The translations under genes and the position numbers were made by a program. From a virus, in IMG/VR virus record IMGVR_UViG_3300027771_000023, positions 1-50,882 of that record: 50,882 nt of DNA; one strand, written 5' to 3'. Below, one piece after another: positions 7,215 through 25,002 of the stretch. Position 1 is the first letter of the stretch; the number at the start of each line of letters is the position of its first letter. Under the pieces are notes generated by a model, which did no database searches, had not been told where the DNA came from, and was given only the letters and a program-made list of their open reading frames with translations.

Positions 7215-7751
7215 TTAAACGATTTTGGTTTTTACGAAATGTGTTCCATTAGTTATAACGTGTTCAATCTCTAAAGAAAGACCACCTTCAACTTTGTGGG
7301 AAATACCATCATCATTGATGTCATCTCCATTTCCATCTTTACCGAATCGTCCACCATACTGCGTCATTGGCATTGATTGTTTACCTGCCTCAGACAAGGT
7401 GACATCACCAAAAGTAAGTCCCAACTTTTCTAGTCGATCTCTTACTATATTCAAAGCGTGTTCTGGCATCAGATATTCCATCTGACCCATTGCACCTAAG
7501 AATGAATTGATTCTATCAATTGTCGTGACATCACCAAAAGTAAGTCCCAACTTTTCTAGTCGATCTCTTACTATATTCAAAGCGTGTTCTGGCATCAGAT
7601 ATTCCATCTGACCCATTGCACCTAAGAATGAATTGATTCTATCAATTGTCTTGGGGTTAGCAATATCATTAACTCCATCATCACCAGATTTAAGGTGAGC
7701 AGCCATTTGATGGTCTTGATATGACTCATTGAACTTGCTAAAGTTTTTCAT
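7215..7751 (-). CDS. Putative prohead protein with duplicated 42-aa segment
   Basis: 178 aa. The N-terminus MKNFSKFNE resembles the capsid-targeting leader seen on neighbouring genes. A 42-residue unit, including TIDRINSFLGAMGQMEYLMP, occurs twice in a row, identical at both DNA and protein level. One copy would give a 136-aa protein. The C-terminal part has an acidic D/N-rich stretch (GKDGNGDDINDDGISHK) that could bind metal, followed by a beta-rich end. An AAGGAAT site supports the ATG at 7751. Its role is unknown; the late block and the leader suggest packaging in the head. Confidence 0.7.
   Translation of the reverse strand: MKNFSKFNESYQDHQMAAHLKSGDDGVNDIANPKTIDRINSFLGAMGQMEYLMPEHALNIVRDRLEKLGLTFGDVTTIDRINSFLGAMGQMEYLMPEHALNIVRDRLEKLGLTFGDVTLSEAGKQSMPMTQYGGRFGKDGNGDDINDDGISHKVEGGLSLEIEHVITNGTHFVKTKIV
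7399..7650. repeat. Perfect 126-bp tandem duplication (2 copies)
   Basis: Copy 1 is 7399-7524 and copy 2 is 7525-7650, identical at every base and in frame (42 codons). There is no degenerate third copy. It could be a very recent duplication or an assembly artefact. Confidence 0.97.
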
Positions 7752-21220: not shown

Positions 21221-21916
21221 TCATTTTACTGCCATTGCTCCTACGAACATATGATTTCTCCAAAAAGGTTGGACATCCACAAACCCAGCAGCATACAACA
21301 TGTTACTTAATTCATTCCAAGTGTTTGGTTTCATCATATGCCGTAATGTTCTTTCTTTGTCCATAATATCTTCTGTATCAAAAGACTGTCTCTTATAATC
21401 ATAATAGTTGAATGTAAGCATATCTTGGAATACTGCATTCTCACAGATTGTCTTTTCTGAAAAGATAAAGGCCCCACCATCATTTAACCCATCATATATG
21501 GTTTTTAAAACTGTAAGTCTATCTCTTTTTGGCATAAATTGTAAAGTAAAGATAGACGTTACAAGAGATGCGTTTTCAATAGTTGTGTTACGAATATCCT
21601 CCAATCGAAAATCTACAGAACACCAAGGATGTAATTCGGCTAACAAACCTTTGCGTTCTTCTAAATCATCAAAAAAACCTTCGGCAATTTCAACTCCAAT
21701 GTAGTTTGCATCACAACAGTGATCTTGGTTAGCCTCCAACATACGTTGTGTTAGTTTACCAGTTGAACACCCAATGTCATATACATTAGTTCCGTCTTCA
21801 ACAAAGTAACGGGACATTGCAATTACATCTTCTAGAAGATTACCATAGCCACGAATACTCTTTTCGATGTGTTCATCAAAACCTTCTTCTCTGTGTGCAA
21901 ATGTAAAATCAGCCAT
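21221..21916 (-). CDS. cmoA: CmoA-like carboxy-S-adenosyl-L-methionine synthase
   Basis: 231 aa. E. coli CmoA converts SAM and prephenate to carboxy-SAM (CxSAM). The match to CmoA as I remember it runs the whole length: FDEHIEKSIRGYGN (E. coli: IQRSVPGYSN), NVYDIGCS (45-51), DIRNTTIENASLV, FTLQFMPKRDR, YDGLNDGGAFIFSEK (141-155), YDYKRQS and a later KERTL (187-191), which may supply the CmoA carboxylate-binding Arg. This pattern separates it from ordinary SAM methyltransferases. The start is ATG 21916 (MADFTF), with GGAGAAG upstream; a longer frame from 21955 lacks a good site. It overlaps the DNA methyltransferase stop by 8 nt. No CmoB partner is visible, so the product may serve DNA rather than tRNA modification (inference). 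Confidence 0.88.
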   Translation of the reverse strand: MADFTFAHREEGFDEHIEKSIRGYGNLLEDVIAMSRYFVEDGTNVYDIGCSTGKLTQRMLEANQDHCCDANYIGVEIAEGFFDDLEERKGLLAELHPWCSVDFRLEDIRNTTIENASLVTSIFTLQFMPKRDRLTVLKTIYDGLNDGGAFIFSEKTICENAVFQDMLTFNYYDYKRQSFDTEDIMDKERTLRHMMKPNTWNELSNMLYAAGFVDVQPFWRNHMFVGAMAVK

Positions 21917-23105
21917 TATACTTCTCCAATACTTTTTCATAAACGGATGTTGCAATTGCCTTCATCATTAGTGGCGGCACCATCCTACCAATTCGTTCTG
22001 CCTTCTGATTCCACTTACCTGTAAGTTTGAAATCATCTGGTAGAGACATAATTCTTTTCAATTCACCTAGTGTTAACTTTCTTGGTTCAATCCAATGGAA
22101 TGCCCCAGCAGTTGTATCTGCACTACCCATTGCAGTCAGAGTTGGAGCTGGTGCGTATTGTGACACACGTTTCAGATTGAAGTGATGTCCTTTAGGATGA
22201 TAATCACCACCAGTGAGAACTTTCTCTGGGTCAATTGGCATCTTACTTCCTGTCTGTTTCCAGTATGCAGTATTAGTAAACTTCTCTGTTAGATACTTCA
22301 CCTCTTCTGCATCATATTCCAAACCAACCATCACATCCTTGACAGGTATAACTATATTACTTGGGTCTGGGAATAGTGTTGATAGTGACATAAAGTTTAA
22401 TCCAATAGAAGATAAAACGTCTTGTCTAACTGCAATAAAAATAACCCTTGATCTAGTTTGTGAAACACCATAGTATCGACTATCTAAAACTTGGGCGCAC
22501 ACCTCATATCCAATCTCTTCAAATGTATTAAGAATTTTGTTGAAATATGTCTTGGCCTCACCTATAGTCAATCCTTTTACATTCTCTGCAATAATTACTT
22601 TAGGTTTAATTTCTTCAGCAATACGCAAGAACTCAAAGAACAAGTCTTCAATGTTTTCTACTGTCTTCCCGTCAGAATAGTTTTTAGTTTGATTCCAACC
22701 ATCAGAATGTTTACCACTTACCTTTTCGATTGTAACATTACCAAACAAGTCTATACGTTCTTCTTCATGTATATTGTGTGACAATTTCCCTGCGACACTA
22801 AATGCAGAACATGGGGGTGACCCATCAAGTATGTCTAACTCACCAACACCAATACCAGCTGCATCAAGGAAATCTTTACCAGACAGTTCCTTGATATCGT
22901 CTGGTAATATTACAGTGTCAGGATAGTTCTCAGCATATGTGTTCCGCCCCTCCAGCACGAACTCATTTGCCACAAGGACTTTACCCCCTGCAAGTTTATA
23001 ACCACAGGATGAACCGCCCCCACCAGAAAATGTTGATATCACAGTAAATTTGTTTTGTGCAGACGCATCATATACGTCTTGTAGGTTATAAGGTACATAT
23101 TTCAT
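21909..23105 (-). CDS. C5-cytosine DNA methyltransferase with Arg in motif X (candidate carboxymethyltransferase)
   Basis: 398 aa. All C5-MTase motifs are present: I ISTFSGGGGSS (24-33), IV DGSPPCSAFS (94-103, catalytic Cys99), VI IIAENVKGL (ENV 174-176), VIII SQTRSRVIF (QxRxR, 216-220), a target-recognition region at about 230-345, and motif X RIGRMVPPLMMKAI. In ordinary enzymes motif X reads G-N-x-V-P; here the Asn is Arg374 (codon AGG, 21984-21986). Asn to Lys/Arg at this position is the change I recall making a CpG enzyme accept carboxy-SAM. With cmoA next door, the likely product is 5-carboxymethylcytosine (inference). It overlaps both neighbours. An ordinary methylase against restriction remains the alternative. 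Confidence 0.93.
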   Translation of the reverse strand: MKYVPYNLQDVYDASAQNKFTVISTFSGGGGSSCGYKLAGGKVLVANEFVLEGRNTYAENYPDTVILPDDIKELSGKDFLDAAGIGVGELDILDGSPPCSAFSVAGKLSHNIHEEERIDLFGNVTIEKVSGKHSDGWNQTKNYSDGKTVENIEDLFFEFLRIAEEIKPKVIIAENVKGLTIGEAKTYFNKILNTFEEIGYEVCAQVLDSRYYGVSQTRSRVIFIAVRQDVLSSIGLNFMSLSTLFPDPSNIVIPVKDVMVGLEYDAEEVKYLTEKFTNTAYWKQTGSKMPIDPEKVLTGGDYHPKGHHFNLKRVSQYAPAPTLTAMGSADTTAGAFHWIEPRKLTLGELKRIMSLPDDFKLTGKWNQKAERIGRMVPPLMMKAIATSVYEKVLEKYNG

Positions 23106-23920
23106 ACAAAAAACTCCTCTAAAGTGTCCTTACTATTTAGCGTGTTCCAATCTCTACATATGTCCATTATTCTACTCCTGTTCTTAAAGTTTACTGTCGG
23201 ATCATCTATCAATGATTCGAATAACTCTATTATACCAGAATCTATCTGTAAATTCAAGTGGTTTTTCACTTTTCCTATCAATTTAAATTCATCAAACGCA
23301 TTCCTTACATGGTGCTTCTGAAAGGGTTTATTCAATTCATCCCAACTCTTACTATAGAAAAACTTCTTAACACTATCCGTTAAGTATGGTGTAATGAACT
23401 TTTTGTTATGTGAGTCTGAAACTTTTCGATGCTGCAAATAGCCAGCACAATTCTCAGGCAGAAAATAATTATCTCTAAACTTGTCAAACAATTCTTGTGT
23501 ATGTTTGAAATGCATCATTGCCTTTTTACTGAGACCATAATACCCATCAGCGGCCCAGCCTGACAAAACTTCCGTTTCCTCTATTTGACCATACGCATAT
23601 AGAAATGGATATACACACTCAAAATGGGTCTTCTTTCTAGAGCCCAATTTTACTAGTCTATGGAAATCTTCAACCAGATTATTAGTTGGAACTTTGATGC
23701 CTGTAAATTCCCACTTACAAATTTCAGCAATCTCTTTTGCCTTTATGTAGTCATATGACTCATGCGTATCTAAGCAAAAGCTATATGCGTGAATTATTTT
23801 ACCTAATCTTTGTGCAGCGAATGCTACTGAAATTGAGTCAGCACCGCCAGAAAGCAGCACTGCACATTTGTCAGAATCAGATACTTTACTAATTTCATTT
23901 TCTAACAGTTTGTCAATCAT
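23102..23920 (-). CDS. Asparagine-synthase-like PP-loop ATPase without glutaminase domain
   Basis: 272 aa. PP-loop CAVLLSGGADSISVAFA (SGGADS at 24-29) and the AsnB-type second motif LSGWAADGYYGLSKKAM (119-135), then ITPYLTDSVKKFFYS and FQKHHVRNAF, which match the C-terminal synthetase domain of asparagine synthase. The N-terminal Cys-nucleophile glutaminase domain is absent, so ammonia must come from elsewhere. The known chemistry of the family is ATP activation of a carboxylate to acyl-AMP and amidation. In this operon a carboxylate on the base would be a natural substrate, giving 5-carbamoylmethylcytosine (inference). It overlaps both neighbours by ATGA. tRNA-type or queuosine-type PP-loop enzymes are less similar. 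Confidence 0.8.
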   Translation of the reverse strand: MIDKLLENEISKVSDSDKCAVLLSGGADSISVAFAAQRLGKIIHAYSFCLDTHESYDYIKAKEIAEICKWEFTGIKVPTNNLVEDFHRLVKLGSRKKTHFECVYPFLYAYGQIEETEVLSGWAADGYYGLSKKAMMHFKHTQELFDKFRDNYFLPENCAGYLQHRKVSDSHNKKFITPYLTDSVKKFFYSKSWDELNKPFQKHHVRNAFDEFKLIGKVKNHLNLQIDSGIIELFESLIDDPTVNFKNRSRIMDICRDWNTLNSKDTLEEFFV

Positions 23921-25002
23921 ATATCAAGACGTTCCCATGGCTTCCCATCAATACCAACAAGATCAATCTCTTTAGCAGTACCTTCATCATTATTAATTCT
24001 TTCTACATCTTGAGCAAAGAAACCATTAAAAGTTAAAGGAAATCTTCCCTTACTTCTTGTTTCAACTTCAGATATTGGCATATCAATATAATATGAAACC
24101 CATTTATTAAACATAGGTTCCATACGATCAAATTCTTCACATATTTCTTTACGTTTAATATCAAGAGTTTTAGGATTGGGTTCATCAACCCAAGTCGTGA
24201 GATATACCTTTTGAAAACTATTCTTTACACTTAAAGTCATTCCATCCCAAAAAAAGTTTTTCAATGCAGTAAACTTTCGAGCATAACCAAAAGATGTAGT
24301 CTTTTCGTTCTTCATACCCTCAAATGGTAGATTTAATCTTGTGGCTTCTTTCTTTGCTCGACTTGTACTCAATGCTTTCATAGTAGACCAACGAGAGATG
24401 TGTTCTTTACGAAGCGTTTTTAAGATAGGTTCGTGCCATTTGGGTTTGCTACGACATATTAGTTCAAGGTATTTGAGGATTGCCTCATCAGTATCTACAA
24501 TGAGGTTACTAACAACAGCATTAACTACAGACTTTAAGATAGTAGTTTTGGAATTTGCAACCGCTGGTGCATTGTGTTCTTCATCATCATTAGAATTACA
24601 TTTGAAAACCTCAAGCTTCATTTCTGTATCATACTCAACTATATCATAAATTGCAGTTTCCCAACTAAGCCTGTCTTGAGCAGCATTTCTTCCATAACCA
24701 ACTATTCCTTTAAACATTTTAGGATCATCTTTATCTACAATAATTGCTTGTGGTGGTTTTGTATACAAAAACCCTACATTTGAATAAGAGTTCTCTATTC
24801 CATCAACACGTTCTTCACCAGAATCTTCTTCACGAATTTGTTCTGAAATTTTGAATGACACTTTAGAACGATTTAATACAAGACGTTTCTTAAATGTAAT
24901 GCCGGGGAACAATGGTTTCCCATCAGTTCCTAATTGCATATAGTACATTTCTGGTGGACATTCTCTAAGCGACCTATCTAGGTCAAACTGTATTTTAGTC
25001 AT
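23917..25002 (-). CDS. ParB/Srx-fold-like protein, first gene of the modification operon
   Basis: 361 aa from ATG 25002, placed after a strong AAGGAGGA site; the longer frame starts inside the leader. Residues about 80-160 resemble a ParB-type domain: PPQAIIVD, then GIVGYGRNAAQDRLSW (the G-x-x-R-x-x-A core, Arg105), AIYDIVEYD, and NDDEEHNAPAVANSK. The remainder (about 165-361) is helical and unassigned. ParB-fold proteins use CTP or ATP, or act as nucleases or kinases; phage members occur near DNA-modification genes. Possible roles: DNA specificity, a nucleotide-dependent step, or regulation. The match is by eye and moderate. Confidence 0.6.
   Translation of the reverse strand: MTKIQFDLDRSLRECPPEMYYMQLGTDGKPLFPGITFKKRLVLNRSKVSFKISEQIREEDSGEERVDGIENSYSNVGFLYTKPPQAIIVDKDDPKMFKGIVGYGRNAAQDRLSWETAIYDIVEYDTEMKLEVFKCNSNDDEEHNAPAVANSKTTILKSVVNAVVSNLIVDTDEAILKYLELICRSKPKWHEPILKTLRKEHISRWSTMKALSTSRAKKEATRLNLPFEGMKNEKTTSFGYARKFTALKNFFWDGMTLSVKNSFQKVYLTTWVDEPNPKTLDIKRKEICEEFDRMEPMFNKWVSYYIDMPISEVETRSKGRFPLTFNGFFAQDVERINNDEGTAKEIDLVGIDGKPWERLDI

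Follow-up and report, generated by a model that had tools for sequence, protein, structure and literature searches.

A DNA hypermodification system based on carboxy-SAM (Cx-SAM) was described in Synechococcus phage S-B43 (Yang et al., Nat Commun, December 2025; PMC12783734). According to that paper, CmoA of S-B43 makes Cx-SAM, and SpCmoX carboxymethylates C5 of cytosine in GC sites, with Cx-SAM rather than SAM as its cofactor. CmoY then couples glycine to 5cxmC. In the crystal structure 8YF3, Arg350 of SpCmoX, which corresponds to Asn304 in M.HhaI, touches the carboxymethyl group, or carboxylate, of Cx-SAM, and the R350N variant lost activity with SAM and with Cx-SAM. Using the criteria of an SPPC sequence and Arg350, the authors catalogued 5,615 CmoX candidates, often accompanied by CmoA, ligases or ParBc proteins. 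They also cite an engineered enzyme, M.MpeI N374K, in which a basic residue in place of the motif X Asn permits the use of Cx-SAM.

The window, by which we mean the whole analysed stretch of 50,882 bases, is a virus record from a marine phage. It contains T4-like replication genes (DnaB-like helicase, UvsX, DNA polymerase, clamp, clamp loader and translation repressor), and its observed/expected ratio for the GC dinucleotide is 0.915. Elsewhere in the window, an exact tandem duplication (126 bp x2, 100% match, positions 7399-7650) lies within the ORF at 7215-7751.

Four overlapping genes on the minus strand of the window encode a ParB-fold protein and homologues of CmoY, CmoX and CmoA (Table 1). 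The overlaps are 4 bases between the ParB-fold gene and cmoY, 4 bases between cmoY and cmoX, and 8 bases between the end of cmoX and the start of cmoA. As in S-B43, in whose region (MN018232) the cmoA, asparagine synthase and MTase genes are adjacent, all three cmo genes are present, with similar sizes and with an Arg at motif X of the C5-cytosine methyltransferase (MTase). Identical residues amount to 230/372 aligned (62%) for CmoX, 136/230 for CmoA and 129/268 for CmoY. However, the gene order differs (cmoY-cmoX-cmoA in the window, cmoA-cmoY-cmoX in S-B43), and no ParB-fold gene is annotated beside the S-B43 genes. In addition, the window CmoX has a segment of ~17 residues after motif IV that is absent from SpCmoX, so that its site preference may differ.

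Table 1. Positions of the features discussed, in the window and in three further loci
Feature	Sequence	Position	Strand	Details
cmoA, carboxy-SAM synthase homologue, 231 aa	window	21221..21916	-	4gek 1e-27; phrog_4752 2e-63; 59.1% to SpCmoA
cmoX, C5-cytosine MTase homologue, 398 aa	window	21909..23105	-	PF00145 1.1e-52; 8YF3 E=3e-143
Motif X codon AGG, Arg374 (CCT on + strand)	window	21984..21986	-	corresponds to SpCmoX Arg350, M.HhaI Asn304
Cys99 codon, motif IV catalytic nucleophile	window	22809..22811	-	corresponds to SpCmoX Cys98 (alignment); position computed from residue number
cmoY, asparagine-synthetase-like ATP-dependent amide ligase, 272 aa	window	23102..23920	-	PF00733 1.5e-10; phrog_26038 4e-33; 48.1% to SpCmoY
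ParB-fold protein, 361 aa, first gene of the overlapping set	window	23917..25002	-	AlphaFold2 model vs ParB/KorB
Gly-type C5-MTase adjoining cmoA	L086	9461-10468		
Gly-type C5-MTase adjoining cmoA	L087	8648-9646		
Gly-type C5-MTase adjoining cmoA	L148	4989-6008		

The MTase belongs to the PF00145 family, as judged by its Pfam match and by motifs I (FSGGGG, residue 26), IV (PPC, residue 97), VI (ENV, residue 174) and VIII (QTRSR, residue 216). Arg374 sits within ERIGRMVPPLMMKAIA, and a profile alignment places it in the column that holds Asn in M.HhaI (GNSV) and Arg in 8YF3 (GRMV). The original prediction held that an AGG codon puts Arg in place of the motif X Asn while the remaining catalytic motifs stay intact; translation and alignment bear out both statements. 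It also described C5-MTases generally as having G-N-x-V-P, but Asn is not universal here: many of the related bacterial MTases have Met, so the family does not strictly require Asn.

Arg occupies this position in 80/80 viral contigs found with the window protein (77-100% identical), which rules out a sequencing error. The same conservation bears on the alternative that the MTase has decayed or lost its function. Apart from the missing Asn, we found nothing that favors decay, and the 398-aa open frame, the retention of all motifs and the invariant Arg in close homologues speak against it. We regard the chance of decay as negligible, in line with the original prediction.

Among solved structures, 8YF3 is the best match by sequence, and the runner-up has an E-value of 7e-20. 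An AlphaFold2 model of the window CmoX (18 sequences, pLDDT 87.3) superposes on 8YF3 with a Z score of 47.0 and an rmsd of 1.7 over 332 aa, while the next chain has a Z score of 32.1. The model is cofactor-free, and the expected contact between Arg374 and Cx-SAM derives from 8YF3, with which Arg374 is in register by sequence alignment. A model with Arg374 away from the sulfonium substituent, one of two outcomes named beforehand as contradicting the carboxy-SAM reading, thus did not arise. SpCmoX residues Phe25, Glu47, Phe48, Asp69, Ser95-Cys98 and Arg350 correspond to F26, E48, F49, D70, S96-C99 and R374 in the window, and all are identical. Hence, every Cx-SAM contact named in the text of Yang et al. 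is kept, as are the SPPC sequence and the Arg used to recognize CmoX candidates.

The prediction that Arg at motif X admits Cx-SAM by means of its carboxylate is consistent with the Arg350 contact in 8YF3. As a simple switch, however, it is too strong: R350N is reported by Yang et al. to accept neither cofactor, and Lys occurs at this position in MTases without a detected cmoA. Cx-SAM as the cofactor of the window CmoX is well supported, and we infer from the S-B43 homologue that the enzyme is a Cx-SAM-dependent DNA cytosine carboxymethyltransferase.

Several other known systems are related. M.HhaI and other SAM-dependent C5-MTases share the fold and catalytic motifs, but have Asn at motif X and use SAM. 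M.MpeI N374K is engineered, has Lys and acts at a CG site, whereas the window enzyme is natural and has Arg; that both residues are numbered 374 is a coincidence. The M.MpeI variant reportedly makes 5cxmC at CG. Synechococcus phages S-CRM01 and RN05-S also have cmoA-cmoX with Arg, but, unlike in the window, cmoY was not found in the stretches read. The E. coli CmoA/CmoB pathway is related to the window by its CmoA, but its acceptor is ho5U in tRNA, by way of CmoB (PMC12783734).

The window CmoA is homologous to solved CmoA proteins, matching 1im8 (6e-27) and 4iwn (2e-26) in addition to E. coli CmoA (4gek). Its match to NCBIfam TIGR00740 (1e-34, 120 bits) lies below the equivalog cut-off of 193.3 bits. 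Given that the biochemically proven SpCmoA also scores below it, with 115.6 bits, this cut-off is unsuited to phage CmoA proteins.

Adjoining cmoX, the window CmoY has an Asn-synthase-like ligase domain (PF00733 at residues 11-131) and a weak QueC match, and a Pfam search detected no glutaminase domain in it. CmoY might join an amine other than glycine, such as another amino acid, to the product of the same CmoA-CmoX chemistry, which would lead to a different final base. An identity of just 48% to SpCmoY is compatible with this idea. However, this value is above the ~30% identity threshold of the ligase network given by Yang et al., and CmoY, having no glutaminase domain, is not of the ammonia type. 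We therefore consider a different amine unlikely and glycine the probable substrate.

The 361-aa product of the first gene has no Pfam or PHROG match. Residues 39-198 of its AlphaFold2 model (11 sequences, pLDDT 84.1) resemble ParB-family proteins, namely KorB (8qa9_B; Z 11.4, rmsd 2.7, 139 aa) and M. xanthus ParB (Z 10.6), and thus have a ParB-like fold. Yang et al. noted ParBc genes close to many CmoX genes. We rejected the idea that the upstream ParB-fold gene is a general partner, because its family occurs in 9/45 close loci that have more than 2.3 kb upstream. That the protein guides or gates modification is possible but unsupported.

We conclude, with a probability of roughly 0.93, that the cmoA, cmoX and cmoY genes of the window form an operon with which a T4-like phage hypermodifies its DNA; Cx-SAM-dependent carboxymethylation of cytosine would be followed by the joining of an amine. 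The Arg, the gene set, its conservation and the structural match were observed directly. By analogy to the S-B43 homologues, from which we take all enzyme activities, the GC target and glycine, CmoA would convert SAM and prephenate into Cx-SAM. In CmoX, Cys99 would attack C6 to form a covalent intermediate, and Arg374 would hold the carboxylate of Cx-SAM, such that the carboxymethyl group is transferred to cytosine C5, probably in GC sites, yielding 5-carboxymethylcytosine. CmoY would use ATP to activate the carboxylate and form an amide, with glycine as the probable amine. A genome modified in this way would resist host restriction or other host nucleases.

With this gene set, the phage very probably adds first an acidic group and subsequently an amino acid to cytosines of its DNA. 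The carboxy-SAM reading itself is not new, as it was published by Yang et al. in December 2025. Given that the same chemistry is known from a related cyanophage, the window is a new example, not a new kind, and with it the pathway of Yang et al. extends to a further T4-like phage.

To compare the motif X residue with the presence of cmoA, MTase loci were drawn from viral contigs, bacterial genomes and phage records, and the residue in the Arg374 column was scored in each. The tally comprises 222 loci with a scorable MTase, including the window. Arg occurs with cmoA in 163 loci and without it in 7, several of which are cut off by a contig end and one of which (L135) is a doubtful fragment. Gly occurs with cmoA in 9 loci. 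The other 43 loci have no cmoA, and their residues are Met (26), Asn (14), Lys (2) and Leu (1). We called cmoA with a purpose-built HMM at a score of at least 40 bits; many viral matches, at 70-100 bits, are less certain.

Some loci were handled separately. Five MTase pieces below 100 bits were dropped before the tally (L102, with Arg; L107, with Leu; L140 and L142, with Met; and the second, Asn-type MTase of L210, a locus with cmoA and an additional, Arg-type MTase). L144 has no residue at the column, and L088 and L091, which have no matching C5-MTase, are outside the tally. The seven staphylococcal viral loci represent four contigs, since each of the pairs L145/L151, L146/L149 and L147/L150 is a single contig.

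Asn beside cmoA, which had also been named as a finding that would contradict the carboxy-SAM reading, occurs in 0/172 cmoA-bearing loci. Arg at this position is more than a chance occurrence. The expectation that Arg or Lys is conserved beside cmoA held for Arg (163/172), but the remaining 9/172 have Gly, and both Lys loci are without cmoA. Thus, the motif X residue is a strong but not sufficient marker of carboxy-SAM use, and this one residue could serve as a good, though imperfect, genomic marker.

Clustering at 70% identity resulted in 81 clusters, with Arg and cmoA in 51, Arg without cmoA in 3, Gly and cmoA in 3, and other residues without cmoA in 24 (one cluster held both Lys and Met); Fisher's exact test, which ignores ancestry, gives p = 3e-14. 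When loci chosen by means of cmoA or the staphylococcal search are removed, the corresponding numbers for the remaining 72 clusters are 46, 3, 0 and 23 (p = 7e-16, ancestry again ignored). These p values overstate the evidence, because the tree has too few independent contrasts to yield a significant test. The tree of 61 rows, built with the trait column masked, thinned at 60% identity and excluding pieces below 150 bits, L090 and L135, requires 4 changes for Arg. It contains 3 independent contrasts on supported branches (4 if Gly is grouped with Arg), and over 200 random pairings an average of 2.7 were in the expected direction, with a median p of 0.25. The association of Arg with cmoA thus partly reflects shared ancestry.

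These data also bear on the alternative that the window MTase is an ordinary SAM-dependent C5-MTase, in which Arg is a neutral replacement and cmoA serves tRNA or some other purpose. Related MTases without cmoA do tolerate Met, Lys or Leu at motif X. However, the most similar enzyme that has been assayed uses only Cx-SAM (PMC12783734), cmoA overlaps cmoX, no tallied cmoA locus has Asn, and a CmoA-CmoX fusion exists. Moreover, CmoY makes sense only given a carboxylate. We consider a neutral Arg very improbable, and retain the reading of CmoX as a Cx-SAM-dependent enzyme.

The Gly-type MTases are an exception. In staphylococcal phages vB-SscS-F1 and SPbeta-like, cmoA is located beside a C5-MTase with Gly at motif X (VVGGVINQ), and a CmoY-like gene is also found in phage F1 and in viral contig L148. 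These staphylococcal MTases form a distant C5-MTase lineage (~21% identical). Of the relatives with no cmoA in the stretch read, the nearest, from Psychrobacillus phage Perkons (L236), is 49% identical and has Asn (AGNSIE), and the PT1-1 and BM15 MTases also have Asn. Hence, a second lineage has also lost this Asn in the presence of cmoA, yet its replacement is not basic; this exception seems to be new.

Gly-type enzymes lack SPPC and Arg, and would therefore have been missed by the published search. We found no discussion of the Gly type, of fusions or of prophages in the main text of Yang et al. or in listings of related papers; the single mention of a fusion in PMC12783734 concerns ParBc and methyltransferases. 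The Gly type beside cmoA could be a second class of carboxy-SAM-dependent DNA MTase. If so, there would be two structural solutions, and more enzymes that can equip DNA with a carboxyl handle. We see about an even chance that DNA C5-MTases came to use carboxy-SAM by more than one route, always at this motif X position: as the Arg type, the staphylococcal Gly type and an Arg within the Met-type clade (L108).

Natural Lys at motif X (IGKSVPP) occurs in Rhodoferax and Nitrosomonadales metagenome-assembled genomes (MAGs; L112, 8001-9059, and L113, 3893-5005). We considered these enzymes as natural counterparts of M.MpeI N374K, but cmoA was found in neither MAG, although the MAGs may be incomplete. 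A large clade of bacterial C5-MTases has Met (GMSVPP) and no cmoA in the locus (L109-L111, L115-L118, L120-L131 and others). The MTase of Methylophilales phage Melnitz (L004, 4010-6194) falls within an Arg-rich group but has Leu; the stretch read contains no cmoA, and the next gene encodes a Tet/JBP oxygenase (PF12851, 3.6e-11). Locus L178 has Asn and no cmoA.

Several genes are fused into single ORFs, which supports a joint action of CmoA, CmoX and CmoY. CmoY-CmoX fusions occur in a SAR116 MAG (L095, 7002-9140), where the CmoY part is detected by PHROG and a purpose-built HMM, but not by Pfam, and in Bradyrhizobium jicamae (L097, 6984-9122). A CmoA-CmoX fusion in Reichenbachiella faecimaris (L108, 7059-9383) has Arg, inside a mostly Met-type group.

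We rejected a cellular, non-viral CmoA-CmoX system in Hymenobacter and Telluribacter, because ORF lists, read by eye, have terminase-like genes adjoining these loci, which are probably prophages. The terminase check covered these two genera; further loci come from Spirosoma, Bradyrhizobium, Endozoicomonas and Reichenbachiella.

Three further loci have unusual features. The CmoX of Erwinia phage Y3 (L090, 30409-32538) is interrupted at the motif IV catalytic Cys by an intein-like insert (PF14890, PF13403). In Alcaligenes phage Afa-NA1, a CmoA homologue (L091, 9917-10669) occurs together with annotated DNA adenine methylases, and we found no C5-MTase within the 20.7-kb stretch; carboxy-SAM might have another acceptor in this phage. 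Finally, a CmoA homologue (L088, 7917-8711) occurs in a record labelled as a phage from human faeces, where the neighbouring genes, inspected by eye, resemble a biosynthetic and ABC transporter cluster, not phage genes.
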